From a virus: 41,579 nt of DNA. A program made the translations under genes and the position numbers. The stretch is from IMG/VR virus record IMGVR_UViG_3300008108_000259, positions 1 to 41,579 of that record. One strand, written 5' to 3'. Each line of letters starts with the position of its first letter. Positions within the stretch are counted from its first letter, which is position 1. Positions 12,950 through 37,014 of this stretch are shown here, piece after piece. The notes below the pieces were generated by a model. The model did no database searches. It was not told where the DNA came from and was given only the letters and a program-made list of their open reading frames with translations.

Positions 12950-13022
12950 AGCCCCCGACAAGACTTGAACTTGCGACAACCGCTTTACAAAAGCGGTGCT
13001 CTACCAGCTGAGCTACAAGGGC
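12950..13022 (-). tRNA. tRNA-Thr (UGU)
   Basis: The minus strand folds as a full cloverleaf: acceptor GCCCTTG/CGGGGGC (with G-T pairs), D stem GCTC/GAGC, anticodon stem CCGCT/AGCGG with loop TTTGTAA (anticodon TGT), and T arm GCAAG-TTCAAGT-CTTGT. No CCA is encoded. It reads ACA codons, which suit the AT-rich phage genes. Confidence 0.9.
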
Positions 13023-13024
13023 AA

Positions 13025-13294
13025 TTAATCGACAGGTAACATTTCAGGATTTTCTAGATCTAGTTCAAACATTAGAGGATGACATAGTTCATCAATTAAA
13101 TAAAAAGATGATTTATATAAATCATCTGGTTCAAACCTTCTTTCTTTATCTGCCAATTCTATGACTTCCAGATCGTATTGATAACTATCAGGAACATCAT
13201 CAAAAGTAAATGGTATTTGATTTATGAAATACATTAGAACTATTTGTGCTCCTTTATTATACCAAACGTATCTGGCATCTATTCTGTATTTCAT
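13025..13294 (-). CDS. Hypothetical protein (89 aa) between tRNAs
   Basis: An 89-residue protein, MKYRIDARYVWYNKGAQIVLMYF at the N-terminus and an acidic C-terminus ending PEMLPVD. No family is recognised. Its stop lies two bases from the tRNA-Thr, and tRNA-Leu lies about 50 bases upstream, so it sits inside the tRNA cluster. Its AGGAGG Shine-Dalgarno is strong but is contained in a small hairpin that reaches the start codon. Confidence 0.6.
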   Translation of the reverse strand: MKYRIDARYVWYNKGAQIVLMYFINQIPFTFDDVPDSYQYDLEVIELADKERRFEPDDLYKSSFYLIDELCHPLMFELDLENPEMLPVD

Positions 13295-13308
13295 AGGAGA
13301 ACCTCCTA
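13294..13308 (-). promoter_or_regulatory. Shine-Dalgarno sequestering hairpin
   Basis: The minus strand reads TAGGAGGTTCTCCTATG. TAGGAG pairs perfectly with CTCCTA around the loop GTT, enclosing the ribosome-binding site and the first base of the ATG. This could reduce initiation at the 89-residue gene. Confidence 0.45.
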
Positions 13309-13343
13309 CTTTTTTATATTTAGAGATTGTTTAAAACCTCTAA

Positions 13344-13427
13344 TAGGAACGGGGAGACTTGAACTCCCACGAGCAAATGCCCAACTGATTTTAAGTCAGG
13401 TGCGTCTACCGATTCCGCCACGCTCCC
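13344..13427 (-). tRNA. tRNA-Leu (UAA)
   Basis: An 84-base class II tRNA: acceptor GGGAGCG/CGTTCCT, anticodon loop CTTAAAA (anticodon TAA) on the stem CTGA/TCAG, a long variable arm, and T arm GGGAG-TTCAAGT-CTCCC. No CCA is encoded. It reads TTA codons. Confidence 0.92.
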
Positions 13428-13438
13428 ATGTATTTTGG

Positions 13439-13510
13439 TAGGACTGCTGAGACTTGAACTCAGTTCACACCGTTATAAGCAGTGGGCCTTAACCCATAGG
13501 CGACAGTCCC
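13439..13510 (-). tRNA. tRNA-Ile (UAU)
   Basis: A 72-base cloverleaf: acceptor GGGACTG/CAGTCCT, D stem GCCT/AGGC, anticodon stem CACTG/CGGTG with loop CTTATAA (anticodon TAT), T arm CTGAG-TTCAAGT-CTCAG. Reading AUA with a plain UAU anticodon avoids the lysidine-modified CAU tRNA used by most bacteria. Confidence 0.85.
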
Positions 13511-15798: not shown

Positions 15799-18101
15799 TA
15801 TACTCTACCTACACAATCGACTACGCTTAAAATTGAATTTGGAGAAACTTGATCTACTTCGTCTTGCAATTCATCTCCAATTCTTCTAATACAAAGAACA
15901 GGTAATAATTCTGCATTATAACCTGTTTCAGTTTCAATTGCAAATATTGGTCTTTCTTTGTAACCAATACCACTATTTTTAACTAATACTTTTTCTATAG
16001 ATCCAGATGAATCAAGGACGAGTTCTAAATCTGCTCCATTATTTGGTGTAACTGTTATTTTGTCATTCTTTGAATAGTTAATTCCACTATTTTGAACAAC
16101 AACTTCACACAGATATAGAACTACTGGGTAAACTCCTTCGGAACTTGTTGGATAATTGTCTAGATTTCTTGGAGAAATTGGAGAATTTTGTGTTGAAATG
16201 GTTACCGTCGATTTGTTATTTGCCACTATTTTTTCACCAGGAGGTATTGAAATGGTTCCAATTTCTTGATTATCTTCGTCCAAGATAATACCACTCGCAC
16301 CAATAGAATCTCTTGGAACATATATTTCATCTCCAGGATTCAACTCAACAGTTTCTCCGAGATCATATGGAGTATCATATGTTCCATCAGATCTAAAAAC
16401 AATCGCTTGATCTGGTCTTGCCCATTCTCTATCATCACCACCAAGACTTCCATCAGGTGCGGGAAGATAATCTGTTCCAGGATCAGTTATTACAACATCA
16501 CTAACGGTTCCGTCATCGTTTATTCTAACATATCCAGTTGCACCATCACCCTTTCCACAATCGTCTTTAAAGGATATAAAAGGAGGGTTAGTGTAACCTT
16601 GTCCAGGAGTTATAATATCTACACCTATTATATCGCCAATAGCACTAACTATCACATTTCCAGATGCTCCGGATCCACCTCCACCATAAAACTCTACTTT
16701 TGGTGGACCACAAAATACGGGACCAACATTGCAAGTATCTTGAAAGATATCAGAGAAATCCATATTAAAATTAAAGTTATCTAAGTTTGCTGCATTTTTG
16801 ACGGATAATCCAATACTTTTTGCTTTATTGAAAATAGAATTTATATCTACAGTTATATTTCCGCCATTATTACCAGCTCCGTCCCATATACTCCACTGAT
16901 CAATTTCTGGACATGAAGATTTTTCATCACAAGAAATAAAAGATAATATTTGTCTTAATGTTCCAAAAATCTCTTCGCCCAAACTTATTGCAGTCCCTAA
17001 TATTGCATTAATAGGACCCAATGCAGAGTCAACAAGACCACTTATCAATCCAAAAATTTTTCCTAGAATAGAAGCTATAATATTTTCAACTGCACATAAA
17101 GGAACATTTATGAATCTATCAATAAGTTTTTCCAAAAGAGATATTAGCATATTAATAAGATTGCTAATAATCTTATTAAAAATACATGAAATAGAATTGA
17201 CTGCCTTTTTAGTAGCCTTTAAAAGGTCATCTCTTTCATTTGGAAATAGATAATCATGAAATTCTTTTAACCTATCAACAGTTTGTTCTAAGACAAATTC
17301 TCTAATGCCATTGATAATATTTTTGAAAAATTTAGATACGTCCTCAGCAGCTTCTCTAAGTATTCTTTGAATATCTCCTTGTAAGTTTGAAACTGAAGAT
17401 TGCCAAGATTTAAGTTTTGAATTGACATCTTGAATTTTTTGTATTGCTTTTTGCAATGCTAATTGAATTCCCTTAGCATCATTTCCACCACAAGCAGATA
17501 CCTTCGCTGCAGAACTTTTCTTTTTCCCAGCTTTTTTCTGTTGCTGATCTGCAATATTTGTTCTATTTGAAGAAGATGCTGTTCCTCCTTCTATTGGTTT
17601 AGAATTGTTTGTTGCCTTTCCACCACTTCCCTCTGCAGGTATTCCATATACGGGAACAGTTTCTCCCGATAGTCCACTAAAAGGTTCGAATCCACTCTGA
17701 CCTTGTTTATATTTTAGTGGAGTTTGATCGTTATTTGCCAAACAACCAATGATAATTGGTTCATTTGCGTCTCTTCCGTCCTTGAAGAATCCTATTACAA
17801 TCGTACCCTTTCTAATATTTGGGGACTGATATGAAAGTGCATGACCACTACCTCCAGTGACAGGAAGCATCACTTCACACATTTCTAAATCATTATCAGA
17901 AAGACTGCTTTTTGTCTCAGCATGTCTTCCAACAATTCTTACTTTATATCTGCTTCCCCATCCAGGAAGTTGTCCAGACTCTTTCCACTTCGATCTTAAT
18001 TCATTTGTCTTCCAGACTTTATCATCAACAACTTCCCCAATCCACCAATAAAAACCATTACCACCAATTACTTCAGGGTTAAAAACTGCACTATCTGTCA
18101 T
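15798..18101 (-). CDS. gp5: gp5-like baseplate hub/spike protein, no lysozyme domain seen
   Basis: A 767-residue protein. Residues 1-130 match the T4 gp5 N-terminal OB-fold: NGFYWWIGEVVDD, YKVRIVGRH, EVMLPVTGGSG, GTIVIGFFKDGRDANEPIIIGCL. The middle (about 200-400) is helical and hydrophobic. The C-terminal third has beta segments such as ITPGQGYTNPPFISF. No T4-lysozyme-like catalytic block (as in T4 gp5) is visible. T4 gp5 forms the central spike together with gp27; the gp27-like gene lies upstream, separated by a 70-residue gene. Start and stop both overlap neighbours by one base (TAATG). Confidence 0.75.
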   Translation of the reverse strand: MTDSAVFNPEVIGGNGFYWWIGEVVDDKVWKTNELRSKWKESGQLPGWGSRYKVRIVGRHAETKSSLSDNDLEMCEVMLPVTGGSGHALSYQSPNIRKGTIVIGFFKDGRDANEPIIIGCLANNDQTPLKYKQGQSGFEPFSGLSGETVPVYGIPAEGSGGKATNNSKPIEGGTASSSNRTNIADQQQKKAGKKKSSAAKVSACGGNDAKGIQLALQKAIQKIQDVNSKLKSWQSSVSNLQGDIQRILREAAEDVSKFFKNIINGIREFVLEQTVDRLKEFHDYLFPNERDDLLKATKKAVNSISCIFNKIISNLINMLISLLEKLIDRFINVPLCAVENIIASILGKIFGLISGLVDSALGPINAILGTAISLGEEIFGTLRQILSFISCDEKSSCPEIDQWSIWDGAGNNGGNITVDINSIFNKAKSIGLSVKNAANLDNFNFNMDFSDIFQDTCNVGPVFCGPPKVEFYGGGGSGASGNVIVSAIGDIIGVDIITPGQGYTNPPFISFKDDCGKGDGATGYVRINDDGTVSDVVITDPGTDYLPAPDGSLGGDDREWARPDQAIVFRSDGTYDTPYDLGETVELNPGDEIYVPRDSIGASGIILDEDNQEIGTISIPPGEKIVANNKSTVTISTQNSPISPRNLDNYPTSSEGVYPVVLYLCEVVVQNSGINYSKNDKITVTPNNGADLELVLDSSGSIEKVLVKNSGIGYKERPIFAIETETGYNAELLPVLCIRRIGDELQDEVDQVSPNSILSVVDCVGRV

Positions 18102-18313
18102 TAGTCGTAAACTCTACATTCTGATGCGTCAGGATGGGTATCGCAATATAATTCAAGTGGAGTTGGATCATGATCCTCTCCTGGGTGATTTTCTCTATAT
18201 TTTTCTAAAGACTCAACTTCATCTTCTAAATGTCTTTTTCTTTGAGCACTAACTGTAGTGCTATCAATTTCTTTTCTATTATTGTCAATGTGTTGGTTGA
18301 TAGTTCTTTCCAT
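18101..18313 (-). CDS. Conserved small hub-region protein (70 aa)
   Basis: A 70-residue, highly charged protein: MERTINQHIDNNRKEIDSTT, then SAQRKRHLEDEVESLEKY as a predicted coiled-coil helix, then acidic HPGEDHDPTPLELYCDTHPDASEC with two Cys. This kind of protein recurs between the gp27-like and gp5-like genes of cyanophages. The position suggests a hub or spike accessory or assembly factor. No biochemical role is known to me. Confidence 0.7.
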   Translation of the reverse strand: MERTINQHIDNNRKEIDSTTVSAQRKRHLEDEVESLEKYRENHPGEDHDPTPLELYCDTHPDASECRVYD

Positions 18314-19658: not shown

Positions 19659-22600
19659 TTATACTAAGGATTCTGCAATATTATTACTATCTATAGAAGA
19701 ACTAGAAAATCCGCCCAAATACCCACCACCAGAAGTAGATTCTCTAATAACTTCTTTTTGTTTTATAATAATATAATTACTTGCGATTTCATAATCAGTT
19801 TGAGACTTTAATGGTCCCACTGATCTTAGATTCTGCTGTGGCATTAATGCAGATACATCATAATCACTTTTTGGTCTATATCCACCACCAGGAAGTTTCA
19901 TCTTGTTTGGATCAACAGTAGAAGCAATTCCAAAGGCTTGTTTATGATTTGATCTAATTGCAGCATATGTGCGTGAAGTTATTTCTTCAGTTTTTCCACC
20001 TTTTCTTTGCCAGTATTTTCCATTCGCATAAAAATATTCAGTATCACCAACCCTACCAAACCCAGAAACTCTTCCTGTTGGTTGTTCTGCAAGATTTGGA
20101 TTTTGTCTTGGTGGCGGATCTATTTTTGTTGGTGCAGATCCCAACTTTTCAACTCTAACATCAATAATACCACTTCCACCCAATCGGTCCATGGCAGCTT
20201 TACTTAAATCAATAATCCTTCTTGGATGAGGTCTTAATGGATAAATCGGTTCTCCATTAGAATGCATTGCAAAAGGTCCAGTATCATTTACTCTTACTCT
20301 TACTCTTTTTCCGTTTAAAAGATTTGTAACTTCAACGTAAAATGGTTTAGTTCCAACCCCCCATCCAGGTTGATACATAGCAGCTGTCAATCTATTTGTA
20401 TCGAACCTTTCACCAGAAGCAGTTCTTCTGCCTTGAAATCCAGGACCATACCAACTTGCTTGCCCTGTTATAGAATTTCCAGATCTTCTCATTGAAGAAA
20501 CTTTTGCTAAAGATTCCCCCAAATTTTGTCTCTGCAGTCTTGCCATTTCTTCTGGATTGGCGGGACCTTTTTTCAAGTGACCTAATAGATAAGTTTTTCC
20601 TGCAGAATCTTGGATTAGAAGAACATTTCCATATCCTGCATTATATCCAGGCACATATTTTACAAATTTTAAACCTCCTGTGAGTTGAATTGGTGTTCCC
20701 TCGGGTATTCCATAATCAAGTCCTTTATGCTCTTTACCCCATCTCCATCCCATTCCAGATGTAAATGACCAAGAATCTAAAGGTTTTCCTCCAACCATAA
20801 CATTTTTTAAAACATTTGCAGGTATACTTCCACCTGCACCACTATAACCATCACCAGTCTCAATGTGAATGTGAGGTCCAGTCGAACTTCCAGTAGATCC
20901 AACAAATCCAATGACTTGAGTTCCTGGCAAAAATCCTTGATAATCACCGTCTCCAGGGATTGGACCTCTTAAACTATCCGTTGCAGGATCCCTTAAAGAA
21001 AGTTCTTTTGTAATGTTTATAAAAATTTCATTTAATCTAGTTTGTATTAGATTTGAAAAAGACTTGTTTAAAATATCAGTAAGTTGATTACCAACATCTT
21101 GTCCAGCTTGAGGAATGACTCCACCATTTGCCATTCCATATATTTGTCTTTGTAACTCGGAAATAGATAATTGAACTTTATTGTCTATGATACTCTGTAT
21201 GGTTGCTCCGAAAAAGTTGCTGATAGATCCATAAACAGATCTGCTTGGTTTTTGTCCCATAGCAATATCAACAGAGGCTCCCATAACAGGACCAAATAAA
21301 GGAATTCTCTTCAATATTTCAGAAGTTTTCTTCAGAGACCTTAGAGCACTTTTTTGTCCCGGTACTTCTTTTGAGAATAGTTTTTCAATTTTTCCCTTAC
21401 CACCAACGTCCTTACCTGGAAGTGTCTTTTGTGGCGGAACTTTAGTGACCTTTGCTTTTCTAGTTCGTTTTATAGTTCTGCCAACAGAACCACCAACTAC
21501 TTTTCCAGATCTAGTAACTGGTCCACCCTTAGCATATTTTGTTGGTTTTTGTCTTTGGGATATTGTGTCATATAGTGCTCCACCAACGATATCTCCCAAA
21601 ATACCACCAAGAATAGTTCCGGCAAAAGGAATAGGAATAAAAGTTCCTAATGCGGATCCAATTGTAGCACCAACTGCTTTTGCTGCTGCTCTTCCTGGTT
21701 TTTCTCCAGACCATAAAGCAAATAGAAAATCGACTAGTCCACCAATAATTGGAATTCTACCAAAAACTTTTCCTGCTAATTTACCAGCAAACTTTTTAGA
21801 TCCAGACTTTGCAATTTGTCCTGCGGTTTCTCCAGAAATTCCTCTTCTTAATTGTGCCCCAGCAGCACGTCTAGCAGCCTTGTCTGCTGCCCGTTGAGCT
21901 ATTTTTTGTTGACTGGTTATTCCTTTTCCTTCTATAGTTCCGGGTTTTACACCTTCAGGAAGTGATTGAGGTTTATATCCATATCTTCCTGCAGATTGAG
22001 CCCCAGCAACAGTTCCTTGTGGTTTTATTTTTCTTTCATTGCTCCCTGTTTTTATGCCAGAGGCTGCCATCGCAGCAATTATTGTTGCATTTAATGCTAG
22101 ATTTAAATTTTTAGAAAATTCATCAAATTTTTTCCCAGCGTCCTTTCCACCAATATTTTCGACAATAGATTCAAATTTTTTCTTGGTATCATACCCAAAA
22201 TCAATAAAATTGACAATACCATTAAGTATATTACCAGAAAAGTCTTCTACAAAATTAAATATTGGAGATAGATTTCTAGCAATATTAAGCAACTGTGGTA
22301 TTTTTCCACTTAATTTATCAAAAATAAATCCAAAAAAAGTATATAAGAAAAATCTCTTAATGGCACCAAAAATATCAAACCCTACTTTTGGTATAACATT
22401 CTTTGAAGATAATCCTTTAGGTGAAGAAGATTCTAATTTTTTTTCTCTAGATACAAATCTTTTTTTCTCAGTTGCTCTTCTTTTTCTTTCTACTTCTTTT
22501 TTATTGTAAACTGTTGTATTTTCTAAAATTTTAGAAATAATTTGAAGCTTTTTCTTTATATCTAAAAATTGATCAGAAACAGAAACATTATCTTTTTCAG

Positions 22601-22742
22601 TCTTTAAATCTTCCGGATTGATTTTGGCATTATCCCTTTTCTTGACATTTGATATTGGTACCAATATTTTTTTGGCAGCAATACTTAAATTATTTGTTCT
22701 TTTTGAGGGTGGTAATAATTTTTTTGAATCTATTACTGCCAT
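19659..22742 (-). CDS. Large tail/hub-associated protein with M23 peptidase and RlpA-like domains
   Basis: A 1027-residue protein. Residues 1-110 are basic and helical. Hydrophobic helices lie around 122-145 and 330-390 (Gly/Ala-rich, tape-measure-like). Residues 600-725 contain all peptidase M23 motifs but in swapped order: GxHxH (GPHIH, H624/H626) first, then HxGxD-like EHKGLDYG (H672, D676) and LLGHL (H722). Residues 758-868 form an RlpA-like double-psi beta-barrel: ASWYGPGF, TASGERFD (E778), VRVNDTGPF (D820), RIIDLSKAA. The protein probably cuts peptidoglycan during DNA entry. It lies between the tape-measure-like and hub genes; the pair of large genes replaces the T4 28-29 region. Confidence 0.75.
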   Translation of the reverse strand: MAVIDSKKLLPPSKRTNNLSIAAKKILVPISNVKKRDNAKINPEDLKTEKDNVSVSDQFLDIKKKLQIISKILENTTVYNKKEVERKRRATEKKRFVSREKKLESSSPKGLSSKNVIPKVGFDIFGAIKRFFLYTFFGFIFDKLSGKIPQLLNIARNLSPIFNFVEDFSGNILNGIVNFIDFGYDTKKKFESIVENIGGKDAGKKFDEFSKNLNLALNATIIAAMAASGIKTGSNERKIKPQGTVAGAQSAGRYGYKPQSLPEGVKPGTIEGKGITSQQKIAQRAADKAARRAAGAQLRRGISGETAGQIAKSGSKKFAGKLAGKVFGRIPIIGGLVDFLFALWSGEKPGRAAAKAVGATIGSALGTFIPIPFAGTILGGILGDIVGGALYDTISQRQKPTKYAKGGPVTRSGKVVGGSVGRTIKRTRKAKVTKVPPQKTLPGKDVGGKGKIEKLFSKEVPGQKSALRSLKKTSEILKRIPLFGPVMGASVDIAMGQKPSRSVYGSISNFFGATIQSIIDNKVQLSISELQRQIYGMANGGVIPQAGQDVGNQLTDILNKSFSNLIQTRLNEIFINITKELSLRDPATDSLRGPIPGDGDYQGFLPGTQVIGFVGSTGSSTGPHIHIETGDGYSGAGGSIPANVLKNVMVGGKPLDSWSFTSGMGWRWGKEHKGLDYGIPEGTPIQLTGGLKFVKYVPGYNAGYGNVLLIQDSAGKTYLLGHLKKGPANPEEMARLQRQNLGESLAKVSSMRRSGNSITGQASWYGPGFQGRRTASGERFDTNRLTAAMYQPGWGVGTKPFYVEVTNLLNGKRVRVRVNDTGPFAMHSNGEPIYPLRPHPRRIIDLSKAAMDRLGGSGIIDVRVEKLGSAPTKIDPPPRQNPNLAEQPTGRVSGFGRVGDTEYFYANGKYWQRKGGKTEEITSRTYAAIRSNHKQAFGIASTVDPNKMKLPGGGYRPKSDYDVSALMPQQNLRSVGPLKSQTDYEIASNYIIIKQKEVIRESTSGGGYLGGFSSSSIDSNNIAESLV

Positions 22743-22743
22743 T

Positions 22744-24801
22744 TTATGCTATTCCATAAATTGACTTGTTAATCTTTTGATTAATGCTGTATTGATCAGG
22801 AATGTTGGGAACATTTGTAGAACCTCTTGTCTGAGCAATTGGACCAATGTTCCTAACAATATCTGGCAACTGAATAACACTAACATTTGCTCCACCTCTA
22901 ACTGGAGGTCCAGGAAGAGTAAGTTTTGATTGTGGTCCAATATTAATTGGTTGTCCGCGAAGATTTGCATATCCATCGGGTTCATAACCCATTTGTCTCA
23001 TTACTTCTTCTTGACGTTTTGCTGCACCTCTTATTGTTTGTACATTAGAACCAAAATTCCTAAAAGCATCTCTAATTATAGTTGACGAAGATGATGCTCT
23101 TTGTTTGGGAAAACTAACTTGTGTAGAATCATATGGACTCCATTCACGTATTACGCTAGGAGCATTTGGATTTTGATTATATCTCTGAACAGATTTTGGA
23201 GAAAATCTATGTCCCTCTTTCTGATTAACGACACTTCTGTTCAGCGGTATTCCAAGAAACTTATTCTGTATGCCCATTTCAGAATACCTTGGAGATATAA
23301 CGCTTCCAGTTCCAGGAAGAAATCGCCCAAGTTGATTTAGTATACCAGACCCCAATGGTTGTTGACTTCTATTATTTCTACTAAGTCCCTGTATTGATGC
23401 AAGAGTTTGATTTACCGACCCCATACCTATTCTAGGAGTTACTGAAGATCCAATAACTCCTCCATTTTTATGAGTTTCTATTCCAGATCCAAGAAACGTT
23501 GGTTTATTTGCATTTGGTCCACCAAAAATTCTATTCCAAGATAATAGACGATCTCTACCGATTGCGTTAACAGCATCGGTATTCATTACAACTTCACCTT
23601 TCTTTAGAATACCTGTGCCCCCTCCTTCTATTGGAAGTGCTTGAGTATCTTGCCCAGCACCAGAAACTTTAGTGCCAGTTTGATCAGTTACCAATCCACT
23701 AAAACCAGATACTGTGCCGCCACTAGAATACATTGCGCCAGGAACTGGTGCGACAATTGCTTGATTGGATTGTCCCAATTTTAATTCTTGACCAGCAAAA
23801 AAGTTGCCAAATTTTTTGTACCAAGGTAAGTTTGGATTTTTTTCTTCGATTTGGATATTTTTTCTTTGTTCTTCTAGAAAAGGTTTTATTCTTTCTCTTT
23901 CTTTAGATCTTGCAATTGTTCCCGCAACAGAAGTGGTTACAACTAAACTTGTTAAAGGATTTGCTTTTATTAGAGATAATATCTTTGGAGTGAATTTAGC
24001 AAGAGTCGCTATTGTAGATCTAACAAACTTTCCAAATGGAGTTGCAAATAATACAAACGCTGCTAATATACTGGGCCACCAATCTTTCAAAAATTGTTTT
24101 AATGTTGCTATTTTTTTCTTATTTTTTGGATCTGCAAACCATTTTGTGAGTTTTACAAATGCTCTACCCAATAATGTAAAAAATATAAATTTAAAAATAC
24201 TATCTAAAATGTTTTGGACCGGTGCTAGCATTTTAGTTGCTAGAGAAACCATTTTCTGTATTGGTTTTTCTAGTTCACTTTCTCTATTTCTTCTACTAGT
24301 ATTTTCTTCTTTCTTTCTTTCACTTTCTGCACTAGTTTTGGCATATTGATTTTGTACCAATAATCTATGCAATATATTATCTAAAGTAGAAGCAATACCT
24401 TCCAAAGATTTTTTAACACCTTTACCCAAAGAAGGTTCTTTAACTTCAGGAATTACTGCTTTTCCTGCAAGAAAAAATTTCTCTTTAGATACCCTAATTG
24501 GTCCAGTTACACCTATATTTTCTGCCGTTATCTTCTTTTTTTTAATTTTAAATTTGCCAATTTTATTTTTTACTCTTTTAAATTCATCCTGAAGGAGCAT
24601 AGCTCTATCAGTAGATTTTTCTTGTCCTTTATTTACTTTCTGTAGTTCTGTAAAAAGAATCTGCTTATATTCGCCATAAGTAAAATCGTAAAGTTCTTCT
24701 ATCCCAAGTATCTCAAGAATCCTTTCGTCAATGTCCTCAGTGACAAAATCAGATTCTCTCGTTCCCTCGTACAGTGCAAGTTTTCCTGCTTCAACTGCCA
24801 T
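22744..24801 (-). CDS. Tape-measure-like tail protein (gp29 position)
   Basis: A 685-residue protein. Residues 1-180 are charged and helical with coiled-coil character. Hydrophobic stretches lie at about 202-212 (IFKFIFFTLLG), 244-256 (SILAAFVLFATPF) and 283-296. The block GTGILKKGEVVMNTDAVNAIGRDRLL, followed by FGGPNANKP, resembles the GEVV motif frequent in phage tape-measure proteins. T4 gp29 (590 residues) fixes tail length. It directly follows gp26 and the gp51-like gene, where lambda-like phages place the tape measure after the tail chaperones. Its ATG overlaps the gp51-like stop. Confidence 0.6.
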   Translation of the reverse strand: MAVEAGKLALYEGTRESDFVTEDIDERILEILGIEELYDFTYGEYKQILFTELQKVNKGQEKSTDRAMLLQDEFKRVKNKIGKFKIKKKKITAENIGVTGPIRVSKEKFFLAGKAVIPEVKEPSLGKGVKKSLEGIASTLDNILHRLLVQNQYAKTSAESERKKEENTSRRNRESELEKPIQKMVSLATKMLAPVQNILDSIFKFIFFTLLGRAFVKLTKWFADPKNKKKIATLKQFLKDWWPSILAAFVLFATPFGKFVRSTIATLAKFTPKILSLIKANPLTSLVVTTSVAGTIARSKERERIKPFLEEQRKNIQIEEKNPNLPWYKKFGNFFAGQELKLGQSNQAIVAPVPGAMYSSGGTVSGFSGLVTDQTGTKVSGAGQDTQALPIEGGGTGILKKGEVVMNTDAVNAIGRDRLLSWNRIFGGPNANKPTFLGSGIETHKNGGVIGSSVTPRIGMGSVNQTLASIQGLSRNNRSQQPLGSGILNQLGRFLPGTGSVISPRYSEMGIQNKFLGIPLNRSVVNQKEGHRFSPKSVQRYNQNPNAPSVIREWSPYDSTQVSFPKQRASSSSTIIRDAFRNFGSNVQTIRGAAKRQEEVMRQMGYEPDGYANLRGQPINIGPQSKLTLPGPPVRGGANVSVIQLPDIVRNIGPIAQTRGSTNVPNIPDQYSINQKINKSIYGIA

Positions 24802-24958
24802 TTTGTTGTTGCTTGAGTTTTTCTTCTTCTAAATGATTTTTCAATAATGCAACGTAAACATCCCTTTCCCAAGGAATCATATTTTCAATCTCAGTTAATG
24901 AGTATTTATGATACTGCATTAAGGCAAAATTTAATTGAAAATAATTTTCAAGGTCCAT
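24791..24958 (-). CDS. gp51-like small tail/baseplate assembly protein (55 aa), possible -1 frameshift extension of gp26
   Basis: Starting at the second in-frame ATG (24958; AGGA nine bases before it) it encodes MDLENYFQLNFALMQYHKYS, then LTEIENMIPWERDVYVALLKNHLEEE and a Gln-rich tail. An upstream ATG at 24967 is also in frame. The gene occupies the position of T4 gene 51, whose product is an assembly catalyst for the hub. The same frame is open backwards into the end of gp26 and meets a T TTT TTC heptamer, so the segment can also be made as a C-terminal extension of gp26. The pattern of Leu, then SLTEIExM, then W resembles extensions of tail chaperones such as P2 E'. Confidence 0.7.
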   Translation of the reverse strand: MDLENYFQLNFALMQYHKYSLTEIENMIPWERDVYVALLKNHLEEEKLKQQQNGS

Positions 24959-24982
24959 ATGGACCATTCCTATGCGAAAAAA
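24952..24982 (-). promoter_or_regulatory. Candidate -1 programmed ribosomal frameshift site
   Basis: The minus strand carries the heptamer TTTTTTC (24982-24976), read in gp26 as AGT TTT TTC GCA TAG. Slipping back one base gives TTT TTT CGC ATA GGA ATG, which is in frame with the 55-codon gene. Ten bases after the heptamer lies the perfect palindrome GGTCCATATGGACC (24965-24952), a possible stimulatory stem-loop. The fused product would be about 299 residues. Confidence 0.6.
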
Positions 24983-25689
24983 CTTGATAATCCCTCAAGA
25001 ACTACCGTACTTTCAACTTCAGTATTTGGATTTGTAACCTTAATTTCATGAGATAACTTTGGCATACTTTCAAAAAACTTTTCAATCTGCTTAAATTGAG
25101 AAGAATTCATCTGATCTAGAAACTCAACAAGTTCTTTTTTGGTTACATCAGAAGAACTCCACACTTCCTCTTCTGTGTAGATTTTATCAATACAGGAAGA
25201 AACCAAGTCAAAAGATTGATCCATATTATTGTCACCCGAAAAATCAAAGTTACTCTTGATAAATTGATCTAGTGATGGATATTTCATTTCCATAATGATA
25301 TTTTCATCAACTTGAATTTTTGGATTGTGTTCTTCACTTCTCTGAACTTTAATATCGTCAATATTAATCTTTACCGGAACAGTTGTTTCGCCGTCGTCAG
25401 GACATATAATATTAACCTCTATTTCTTCTCCTACAGATTTTCCTCTAATATTCAAAAACAAATATTCTATATCAAATGTGGGCAAAAATTCAACTTTGAT
25501 ATTCTTTGTTTGAATGCAATTTTTAATTACAGTTTTAATTGCTGTAGTGATTTGTTTTGTATCCTCACTTTCCAGGGCAATTACAAGAAGTTTTTCTTCT
25601 CTTACCAGAAATGGTCGGTAATTAATTTTTTGTCCAGTAGAAGGCAATTCCAACTCATATGTTGGTGTAGAAATTTTTGGTAAAGGCAT
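24970..25689 (-). CDS. gp26: gp26, T4-type baseplate hub assembly protein (probable tail chaperone)
   Basis: A 239-residue protein of the T4 baseplate (gp26) family: MPLPKISTPTYELELPSTGQ, INYRPFLVREEKLLVIALES, TKQITTAIKTVIKNCIQ, TFDIEYLFLNIRGKSVGE, a beta segment with CPDDGETTVPV, and MEMKYPSLDQFIKSNFDF. T4 gp26 has 208 residues. It is the first gene of the series gp26, gp51-like, tape-measure-like, M23/RlpA, gp27-like. A late promoter precedes it. The last codons contain a slippery heptamer (see 24952-24982), suggesting a G/GT-like pair of short and long products. Confidence 0.85.
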   Translation of the reverse strand: MPLPKISTPTYELELPSTGQKINYRPFLVREEKLLVIALESEDTKQITTAIKTVIKNCIQTKNIKVEFLPTFDIEYLFLNIRGKSVGEEIEVNIICPDDGETTVPVKINIDDIKVQRSEEHNPKIQVDENIIMEMKYPSLDQFIKSNFDFSGDNNMDQSFDLVSSCIDKIYTEEEVWSSSDVTKKELVEFLDQMNSSQFKQIEKFFESMPKLSHEIKVTNPNTEVESTVVLEGLSSFFA

Positions 25690-25726: not shown

Positions 25727-26551
25727 TCAAGATAAACCTTGATTTAAATCAGTTTGTCCTGGAGTGAGGGGACTCGTAAAACTTGCTCCGCTTGATCTCA
25801 ATAGTTTATCAATATTAATTTCTGAAGGTTGTGTTTGAGTTTCCTCAGTTCCTGGAGTAGATGGTTCCGAAGATGATGTTGTTAACACATAATCTTGCTT
25901 ATTCACAACGTATCTTAAGTAAGTAAAAGATACTGTGCATTTTAAAAGATTTGATCCATCATAAGAAACCGGCATTGAGTTAATTGATATTGGATAAGCT
26001 TTTATAAATCTATATGTTAAACATTTGCCAGACATATCTCTTTCAAATTTGTTAATATACAAACTAGAGGCTCTATATCCACTTCCAGGACCTCCACTTT
26101 TTAGTTTGGTATGAGGTTCTCCTGTACCATCTGGATACCTTACTCTATAGTAATATTGAGATTCTGGCAACTTTCCAGAAAATTCTTCTCCTGCAATATA
26201 AGATATCCAACCCTCAAAAAATGAAATTATATTGTAATCATGGTCAACGTAAAAAGTAAAATCAGCTCTGTCATCATATATTCTTCTATATGCATGTCTT
26301 TCTGTTACTCCACTGAAATCATTATTAATTTCATGAGTTGCTAAGCTGCTACCTGGAAGAGATGCTTCAGAGCAAGAAAGTGAAATAAAACTAGAATCAT
26401 ACTCATATCTCCCAGATTTTTTTAACCAATTAGTTACATCATTTGGAGGATTGAACCAACACTCATAGTGAGATGTTAATGCTGGTCTAAGCAAGGTGGA
26501 TTTTATTGAACTTATTCCCTTGATACTAGGGAATGGGGATCCGAATGCCAT
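25727..26551 (-). CDS. gp54: Baseplate tail-tube initiator, gp54-like
   Basis: A 274-residue protein with a tail-tube (gp19-type) fold signature: SLSCSEASLPGSSLATHEIN (about 57-76), RADFTFYVDHDYNIISFFEGWISYI (95-119), a Tyr-rich segment and CTVSFTYLRYVVN near 205-217. The C-terminal 50 residues are Ser/Thr/Pro-rich and probably flexible. In T4, gp54 (320 residues) caps the baseplate and starts tube polymerisation next to gp48. gp48 here lies close by on the opposite strand, which supports the assignment. No clear Shine-Dalgarno is seen. Confidence 0.7.
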   Translation of the reverse strand: MAFGSPFPSIKGISSIKSTLLRPALTSHYECWFNPPNDVTNWLKKSGRYEYDSSFISLSCSEASLPGSSLATHEINNDFSGVTERHAYRRIYDDRADFTFYVDHDYNIISFFEGWISYIAGEEFSGKLPESQYYYRVRYPDGTGEPHTKLKSGGPGSGYRASSLYINKFERDMSGKCLTYRFIKAYPISINSMPVSYDGSNLLKCTVSFTYLRYVVNKQDYVLTTSSSEPSTPGTEETQTQPSEINIDKLLRSSGASFTSPLTPGQTDLNQGLS

Positions 26552-35352: not shown

Positions 35353-35533
35353 CAGTTTCGTTCAAGTCTCCAAGTAAATCTCTAACAATTTTTTCGTTTC
35401 CGTCTATAGTTTTAATAGTATATAAAGAAGATTTCATATATTTTTTAATCTTTTTATATTTTTTCAATAAATTTTTTACTTCGTCAGTATTTATTGTAAC
35501 ATTTAAATTGTTATCTTTGAATCCAGAATTCAT
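35345..35533 (-). CDS. Hypothetical protein (62 aa) between halogenase and speD
   Basis: From the ATG at 35533, which has AGGAG seven bases upstream, it encodes 62 residues: MNSGFKDNNLNVTINTDEVK, then NLLKKYKKIKKYMKSSLYTI, a very basic helix, then an acidic end GDLNETDG. It overlaps the halogenase stop (ATGA) and the speD start. No family recognised. Its tight coupling to the halogenase-like gene suggests a partner or an unrelated passenger in the same transcript. Confidence 0.55.
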   Translation of the reverse strand: MNSGFKDNNLNVTINTDEVKNLLKKYKKIKKYMKSSLYTIKTIDGNEKIVRDLLGDLNETDG

Positions 35534-37014
35534 ACATTTTCTCCTACCGATTTCCAATGATCAATGTGAAAACTCTCTATCCATTTTATGTGGTCTATGG
35601 TGAGATATTCTTCATCTTCCAAAGCAAAAGGTTCTATTTCTAATTTAGTTTTCCAATTTATGTCTTTTGCTGCCATAGTAAAGGTAAACATATTAATATC
35701 TTCTTCTTTATTTGGATATTTTTCATCCAAACAATCAATATTTTCCATTATTTCATCATAATAATCATATTGAACATTTTTTTGGTCTATCCAAAAATCA
35801 GTGTCTTCTCTATAACAAGTTTTATATTGACAGAGTATAAATGATGTCCACCATTTCATAGAATCAACATACTCAGCATTAAGAGATTCAACTTCTCTCA
35901 AATAGTTTTCATTTTCTCCAAATACAGTACAGTCATAATATTTTGATAGTAACTGGGGGAGTTTTACTGAAAAATCATATGTAAAAGCTAACCCAGGAGC
36001 GTCTAGTGGTTCTAAAAATCCACCAGACAATCCTATGCTACATGTATTAAATTTAAAAGGTTTTTTATTATATCTTGGATTAAAATCAACTGTTCTTGGA
36101 GCAGCTCCATCTTCATACAAATCATCAATTAATTCATCAATAGCATTAGAAATGCTTGTATGATTTGAACTAAACACATATCCAGTTCCAACTCTAGACC
36201 AAACTGGAGTTATCCATCTCCATCCATAATCCATAGTCTTTGATATTGTATATGGATGAAGTTTATTTTTTTTATCTTCATAAGTTTCATATTCTATCGG
36301 ACAAAATACTGCTTTATTTGTAAGAAGAATGTTCGATAGATCTTGATACTTTTCATCGAAGACTTTAGTATTTACATCAGATGTACCACTCGAATTTATA
36401 AAGTAATCTGCCTTTACATGATTGCCATTAGAGAGAATAACAGATTCTATTAATCCTTTTTCATTTCTAACACAGTCAACAACAGTATCTTTTATTAATT
36501 TTATTTTTGTATTCTTTAAAGCAAGATTTTTTAAATATTTAATATACTTTGATGCGTCAAAATGCCAAGAATGTGTTTCTTCTGGACTAAGAAGAACCTT
36601 ATTATTTCTAATCAAATCAAAGAAATTTTTATTAATTAAATCATGATATGGTTTATTTTTTGACTTGTTACCAAAAGTTCTCATGTATTGATATACACTT
36701 TTGATCTTTAGATTGTCCAATTGTTTTGGTTTTTCATAAGCCTTAAATGAATGGATAAAATCATTTTCAGACCAATCCTTGTAATATACTCCATATTTAA
36801 CTGTAGCGTCAGAAGTTTTTATAAACTCCCTCATATCATGATCTTCTATATTTTTATGACACCTAATAACAGAAAGTGTTGTAGATTCTCCAACTCCTAT
36901 AGGAGGTATGTTAGGAGAACCTATAAGTGTTATTTCTCTAATAAAAGGAACTGATTTCAGAACATTGCAAGATATCCATCCAGCAGCTCCTGTTCCAACA
37001 ATACACACATGCAT
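35530..37014 (-). CDS. prnA: Flavin-dependent halogenase-like protein (PrnA family)
   Basis: A 494-residue FAD enzyme of the tryptophan-halogenase family. Visible motifs: dinucleotide-binding GTGAAGW (7-13), GVGEST (40-45), the catalytic Lys in ATVKYGVYYKDW (K73), WHFDASKY (150-157), the halogenase signature GWRWITP (264-270), and GGFLEPLDAPGL (331-342). In PrnA the last block is PLESTG, with the catalytic Glu and halide-contacting Ser-Thr; here these are Asp338, Ala339 and Pro340. The fold is clear, but halogenating activity is uncertain. Such genes are annotated prnA in other cyanophages. Confidence 0.75.
   Translation of the reverse strand: MHVCIVGTGAAGWISCNVLKSVPFIREITLIGSPNIPPIGVGESTTLSVIRCHKNIEDHDMREFIKTSDATVKYGVYYKDWSENDFIHSFKAYEKPKQLDNLKIKSVYQYMRTFGNKSKNKPYHDLINKNFFDLIRNNKVLLSPEETHSWHFDASKYIKYLKNLALKNTKIKLIKDTVVDCVRNEKGLIESVILSNGNHVKADYFINSSGTSDVNTKVFDEKYQDLSNILLTNKAVFCPIEYETYEDKKNKLHPYTISKTMDYGWRWITPVWSRVGTGYVFSSNHTSISNAIDELIDDLYEDGAAPRTVDFNPRYNKKPFKFNTCSIGLSGGFLEPLDAPGLAFTYDFSVKLPQLLSKYYDCTVFGENENYLREVESLNAEYVDSMKWWTSFILCQYKTCYREDTDFWIDQKNVQYDYYDEIMENIDCLDEKYPNKEEDINMFTFTMAAKDINWKTKLEIEPFALEDEEYLTIDHIKWIESFHIDHWKSVGENV

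Follow-up and report, generated by a model that had tools for sequence, protein, structure and literature searches.

A conserved slippery heptamer in the gp26-like gene of a T4-like cyanophage suggests that short and long tail assembly chaperones are made by −1 frameshifting

Results

The stretch of DNA that was analysed, here called the window, is 41,579 nucleotides long and is a contig of a T4-like cyanophage, on which psbA (photosystem II D1) and a CP12 gene occur together with tail and DNA genes of the T4 type. The features of the locus studied here are collected in Table 1. The gp26-like protein scores 261 bits against PF12322, for which the curated cut-off is 24.5, and therefore belongs to that family; the −1 frame segment that follows it is labelled ‘gp51’ or baseplate hub assembly catalyst in other annotations. 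The gene order, namely a tube-like gene, gp26, the extension and then a long gene, is the same as that of lambda V-G-T-H and P2 FII-E-E'-T. The product of the long gene showed weak similarity to the P-SSM2 gene at the same place (E=0.003), and a BLASTP comparison with genes of Cr30, P-SSM2 and ValKK3, made to assess it as a tape measure, gave weak matches or none; it is its position that makes this gene a candidate for the tape measure.

Table 1. Features of the gp26-like locus, in window positions.
Feature	Position	Strand	Remarks
Tail-tube-like protein, 274 aa, upstream neighbour of the gp26-like gene	25727..26551	-	PF23849 E=2.3e-11; phrog_45 E=7.6e-32
gp26-like gene, 239 aa, short form (TAC-N)	24970..25689	-	PF12322 E=1e-77; phrog_150 E=7.9e-82
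AGGG, Shine-Dalgarno-like, 9 nt 5' of the heptamer	24992..24995	-	Possible dnaX-like stimulator
Slippery heptamer T TTT TTC	24976..24982	-	Phase X XXY YYZ, codons AGT TTT TTC
−1 frame extension, TAC-C domain	24791..24979	-	phrog_634 E=4.9e-28; phrog_150 positions 240-280
Palindrome GGTCCATATGGACC, possible 5-bp hairpin, clade-specific	24952..24965	-	10 nt after the heptamer
685-aa gene downstream, candidate tape measure by position	22744..24801	-	Pfam: no match

Four other features of the window were recorded. The CP12 gene (18101-18313), coding for a Calvin cycle regulator (PF02672, E=4.2e-15), sits within the tail gene cluster. Adjoining the tail genes, a 1027-aa protein (19659-22742) contains Peptidase_M23 and lytic transglycolase (DPBB_1) domains, and may be a tail lysin or a portion of another protein that resembles a tape measure. 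A tryptophan halogenase-like gene (35530-37014; PF04820, E=3.5e-72) is present in this cyanophage, and three tRNA genes, Thr(tgt), Leu(taa) and Ile(tat), are clustered at 12950-13510.

The gp26-like gene ends AGT TTT TTC GCA TAG, with the 0-frame stop at 24972-24970. A preliminary description of this DNA had placed the heptamer here in perfect slip phase, and both the coordinates and the codon phase agree with that statement. The −1 frame from 24979 (FRIGMVHMDLENYFQLN...) runs open to a TGA at 24793-24791; a −1 slip at the heptamer would thus enter the open frame of the downstream segment, and the predicted fusion, when recomputed, came to 237 + 62 = 299 residues, as had been proposed.

Conservation of the heptamer and of the −1 phase had been set beforehand as the test of this reading, and we measured it in 165 related loci, which gave 123 clusters when clustered under 92% DNA identity. 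One set of loci consisted of 80 viral contigs with gp26 identities of 81-100%, and a second set reaches about 50% identity. In all 80 contigs both T TTT TTC and the open −1 frame are kept; across the clusters the heptamer is TTTTTTC in 122 of the 123 and TTTTTTT in the remaining one, Methylophilales phage Melnitz, the T TTT TTT form being carried by phiN3 and Cr30 as well. The codon preceding the heptamer ends in T in every cluster (AGT, TCT, GCT, GAT or AAT). The serine and phenylalanine codon usage of these genes predicts S(xxT)-TTT-TTC in about 12.5% of sequences, compared with the 122/123 clusters observed, although this contrast is no independent-sample probability because the clusters are related. 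Over the 50 codons beyond the stop, the −1 frame is open in 123/123 clusters and the +1 frame in none, and amino-acid conservation starts at the very first codon after the heptamer (R, I/V/L, A/G, M/L, x, H, M, D/N, L). The groups that have the heptamer extend from the Kyanoviridae to Straboviridae such as ValKK3, LPCS28, Aeromonas 65 and PX29, and to DLP6, Marzo and OLIVR5; TTTTTTC was likewise found in locus L095, which is 87% identical to ValKK3. The test was thus passed both in the clusters and in distant phage groups.

The E. coli dnaX frameshift has an upstream Shine-Dalgarno stimulator, and an element that resembles it, AGGG, lies 8-9 nt upstream of the heptamer in 114/123 clusters (93%), where about 33% would be expected from Glu and Gly codon use. 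The dnaX stimulator is referred to in a passage of PMC5009743. The element falls in a conserved Glu-Gly pair, written GAG GGN in 78/123 clusters and GAA GGG in 36/123, and GGG codes 34% of the glycines of this pair compared with 7% of those elsewhere in the gene. Downstream of the heptamer, no strong 3' structure was found as a general feature across the clusters, and a search of the junction against Rfam gave one sub-threshold chance match and nothing else. The 14-base palindrome reported in the preliminary description does lie 10 nt past the heptamer, but as a general stimulator it was rejected: all five pairs are formed in 34/46 clusters of the window's clade compared with 23/77 outside it, so that it is conserved in that clade only. 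Within the clade, pair 2 shows eight two-sided GC/AT changes, and pairing was 4.43 of 5 compared with 4.28 in partner-shuffled controls, with 0/1000 shuffles as high, in a comparison that does not control for relatedness. The palindrome may therefore help in the window's clade, and is not a general feature.

Public records annotate the small ‘gp51’ separately, with a start somewhere downstream, and on that account gp26 and ‘gp51’ would be two proteins, the small one starting by translational coupling at its own ATG, 24967 or 24958 in the window. The TAATG overlap of stop and start in ValKK3, Cygsa01, VibK475 and VAP7 is in keeping with such coupling. It had also been proposed that an AGGA before the internal ATG would allow the short product; this holds for the second ATG (24958), at which the 55-codon gene named in that earlier proposal begins and which lies nine nt past the AGGA at 24971-24968, but not for the first (24967), which the AGGA cannot serve because it directly abuts it. 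The starts themselves, however, are poorly kept. Codon 4, where the window has its first ATG, is Met in 72/123 clusters and Leu in 51/123, codon 7 is Met in 84, and 17/123 clusters have no ATG, GTG or TTG in the first 16 codons; in P-SSM7, LPCS28 and Aeromonas 65 the first ATG comes no earlier than mid-domain, yet conservation of the domain sets in at the heptamer. Protein conservation reaches upstream of the starts, up to the heptamer, and when the extension was used as a tblastn query 545 phage records were matched, the matches listed all beginning at the slip-site residue. As two separate proteins would also leave unexplained both the near-invariant heptamer and the in-frame long form of T4, we regard that account as very improbable. 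A combined account, in which frameshifting gives the fusion and internal initiation adds a free C-domain in some phages, has in its favour the ATG and AGGA of the window and the presence in ValKK3 of both the TAATG overlap and the heptamer; we consider it unlikely, if less so, as the start codons are not conserved, and a free C-domain is therefore unlikely to be essential.

The frame might alternatively be changed by RNA polymerase slipping on the run of T, rather than by the ribosome, given that either mechanism requires such a run and that one relative has 8 T. The run is, however, exactly 6 T in 122/123 clusters, whereas bacterial transcriptional slippage is described, in the relevant part of PMC5009743, on runs of about 9, and the AGGG element fits a ribosomal event; of the accounts considered, polymerase slippage seems to us the least credible, with hardly any weight to be given to it. 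Ribosomal frameshifting is the preferred reading.

The heptamer is absent from Ackermannviridae and their kin (KFSST3, loci L195-L209, Cygsa01, VibK475 and VAP7), and Cygsa01, VibK475 and VAP7 have the TAATG overlap. The gp26 genes of the Ackermannviridae loci L190:3001-3980 and L195-L209 are followed by a conserved −1 extension without the slippery heptamer. Kuttervirus-type loci read ATT TTC ATT TAA TTTTTG, again with a conserved −1 extension, and have no usual start codon before mid-domain. A scan of the viral contigs with the gp26 of Vibrio K475 as query gave no matches. We hold as evenly balanced the proposal that the frameshift of the T4-like chaperones is driven by the conserved upstream AGGG, as in dnaX, with no general 3' structure, and that Ackermannviridae reach the same extension without the heptamer, via a slip on the tetramer T TTY or an AUU start.

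Both T4 gp26 (208 aa) and T4 gp51 (249 aa) match PF12322 (215.6 and 177.5 bits, respectively) and phrog_150. T4 gp26 stops at profile position 235, the end of the cyanophage short form, while T4 gp51 reaches position 280 and has a C-terminus that matches phrog_634, as the −1 segment does. An HMM built from the −1 extensions alone recognises the long forms by their C-termini (44RR, E=1.5e-7; T4, 1e-4; EC-F2, 2e-4), in matches that begin at model position 1-3, and matched none of the short forms. Judged by these profile matches, T4 gp51 is a gp26-like domain joined to the C-terminal segment that cyanophages would reach by the slip, and T4 would therefore have a separate gene for each of the two forms, where other phages would make both from one gene by frameshifting. 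When a tree was built from the domain common to all of them, one branch (support 98/95) set the frameshift types apart and another (100/99) set the long forms apart, the short forms being unresolved, a topology that would fit one duplication on the T4 side. In Enterobacter phage EC-F2, a Pseudotevenvirus (L187:4001-5294), the long and short gp26-family genes overlap in tandem, while the T4 pair is divergent. A passage of a 2010 paper (PMC3037559) remarks that cyanophage gp51 is without the first ~200 residues of T4 gp51, which we would explain by the segment being the tail end of a fusion and not a gene. In the part of a review that deals with them, T4 gp26 and gp51 are hub assembly chaperones and gp51 is absent from the particle. 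The suggestion that the two are the T4-type tail chaperones is supported, as they are a short and a long member of a single family.

AlphaFold models of good quality were obtained for the short form (pLDDT 83) and for a natural T4-type long protein (89.5), used in place of the −1 fusion; the latter model has extra C-terminal helices. A Foldseek search of the PDB with the short-form model gave its best probabilities for the HK97 chaperone 2ob9 (0.54 and 0.51) and then 3fgx (0.33), in partial matches of 51-63 columns with E of about 1 or more, nothing being significant. These two structures are grouped as phage tail assembly chaperones of the same structural family in a passage of PMC9603447. 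The long model found no chaperone among the 50 matches listed, and a PDB sequence search found no relative. With P2 E and lambda G, each entered as one sequence, hhalign found no similarity to gp26. The chaperone reading therefore rests on the short and long pair, the gene order, the T4 hub assembly chaperone label and a weak structural hint.

Discussion

A chaperone of the G/GT type is expected to come as two products at a set ratio, 30:1 in lambda, to be absent from the virion, and to bind the tape measure and tube proteins. The gp26-like locus has the conserved heptamer (122/123) and an open −1 frame with a conserved C-domain (123/123; phrog_634), together with a tube-like gene upstream and a downstream gene that fits a tape measure by position only. 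We consider it very probable, from sequence and its conservation, that the gp26-like gene makes two tail assembly chaperones, a short one by 0-frame reading and a long one by a −1 slip, as the preliminary description had proposed for this junction. In the mechanism that we infer, as regards the frameshift, its rate and the binding of partners, most ribosomes would read through to the TAG and give the 239-residue short form (TAC-N), and a minority would slip one base back on U UUU UUC, both phenylalanine tRNAs re-pairing with UUU UUU. The slipped ribosomes would continue in the −1 frame and give the 299-residue long form (TAC-NC), whose C-domain would be small and helical. If the two forms act as G and GT do in lambda, the tape measure protein would become coated by N-domains, the few C-domains present would bring in the tail tube protein, and both chaperones would then depart.

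If this is correct, many public gp51 annotations in cyanophage-type phages should be joined to gp26, and one control problem, the supply of short versus long chaperone, would have two solutions, recoding in most lineages and a pair of genes in T4. Vladimirov and colleagues are said to have found that frameshifting appears conserved in several T4-like groups, T4 using separate genes. A frameshifted T4-like tail chaperone, well supported here, is already known in kind, because Vladimirov, Gautam and Davidson (2022, Virology 566:9-15) identified tail assembly chaperones of T4-like phages, as can be gathered from passages of two papers that cite them: the PRFect paper (PMC10885494) for some T4-like phages in which a short gene is accompanied by a fused long one, and the Adele paper (PMC12846349) for the poly-T −1 signals that TAC-N genes carry in T4-like phages. 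What is added here is the conserved AGGG 8-9 nt upstream, the clade-specific nature of the palindrome, and the Ackermannviridae relatives without the heptamer.

Among known systems, phage P2 E/E+E' resembles gp26 in having a −1 frameshift near the gene end, between the tail tube and tape measure genes, and its annotated site, TTTTTTG, is near-identical to the gp26 heptamer; it differs in that P2 E has no detectable sequence similarity to gp26 and is 91 aa long compared with 239 aa. Lambda G/GT, as described in part of PMC5009743, likewise pairs a short chaperone with a −1-extended long one in the same gene order, although the sequence similarity of G to gp26 is undetectable. The HK97 gp13 chaperone family (2OB9, 3FGX) supplies the best-probability fold matches of the gp26 model, although these are partial and of E of 1 or more. 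Closest of all are the T4-like chaperones of Vladimirov et al. (2022), which, as far as the passages of the citing papers describe them (PMC10885494, PMC12846349), share with the window the phage group, the short and long chaperone and the poly-T −1 signals, and from which no essential difference can be shown.
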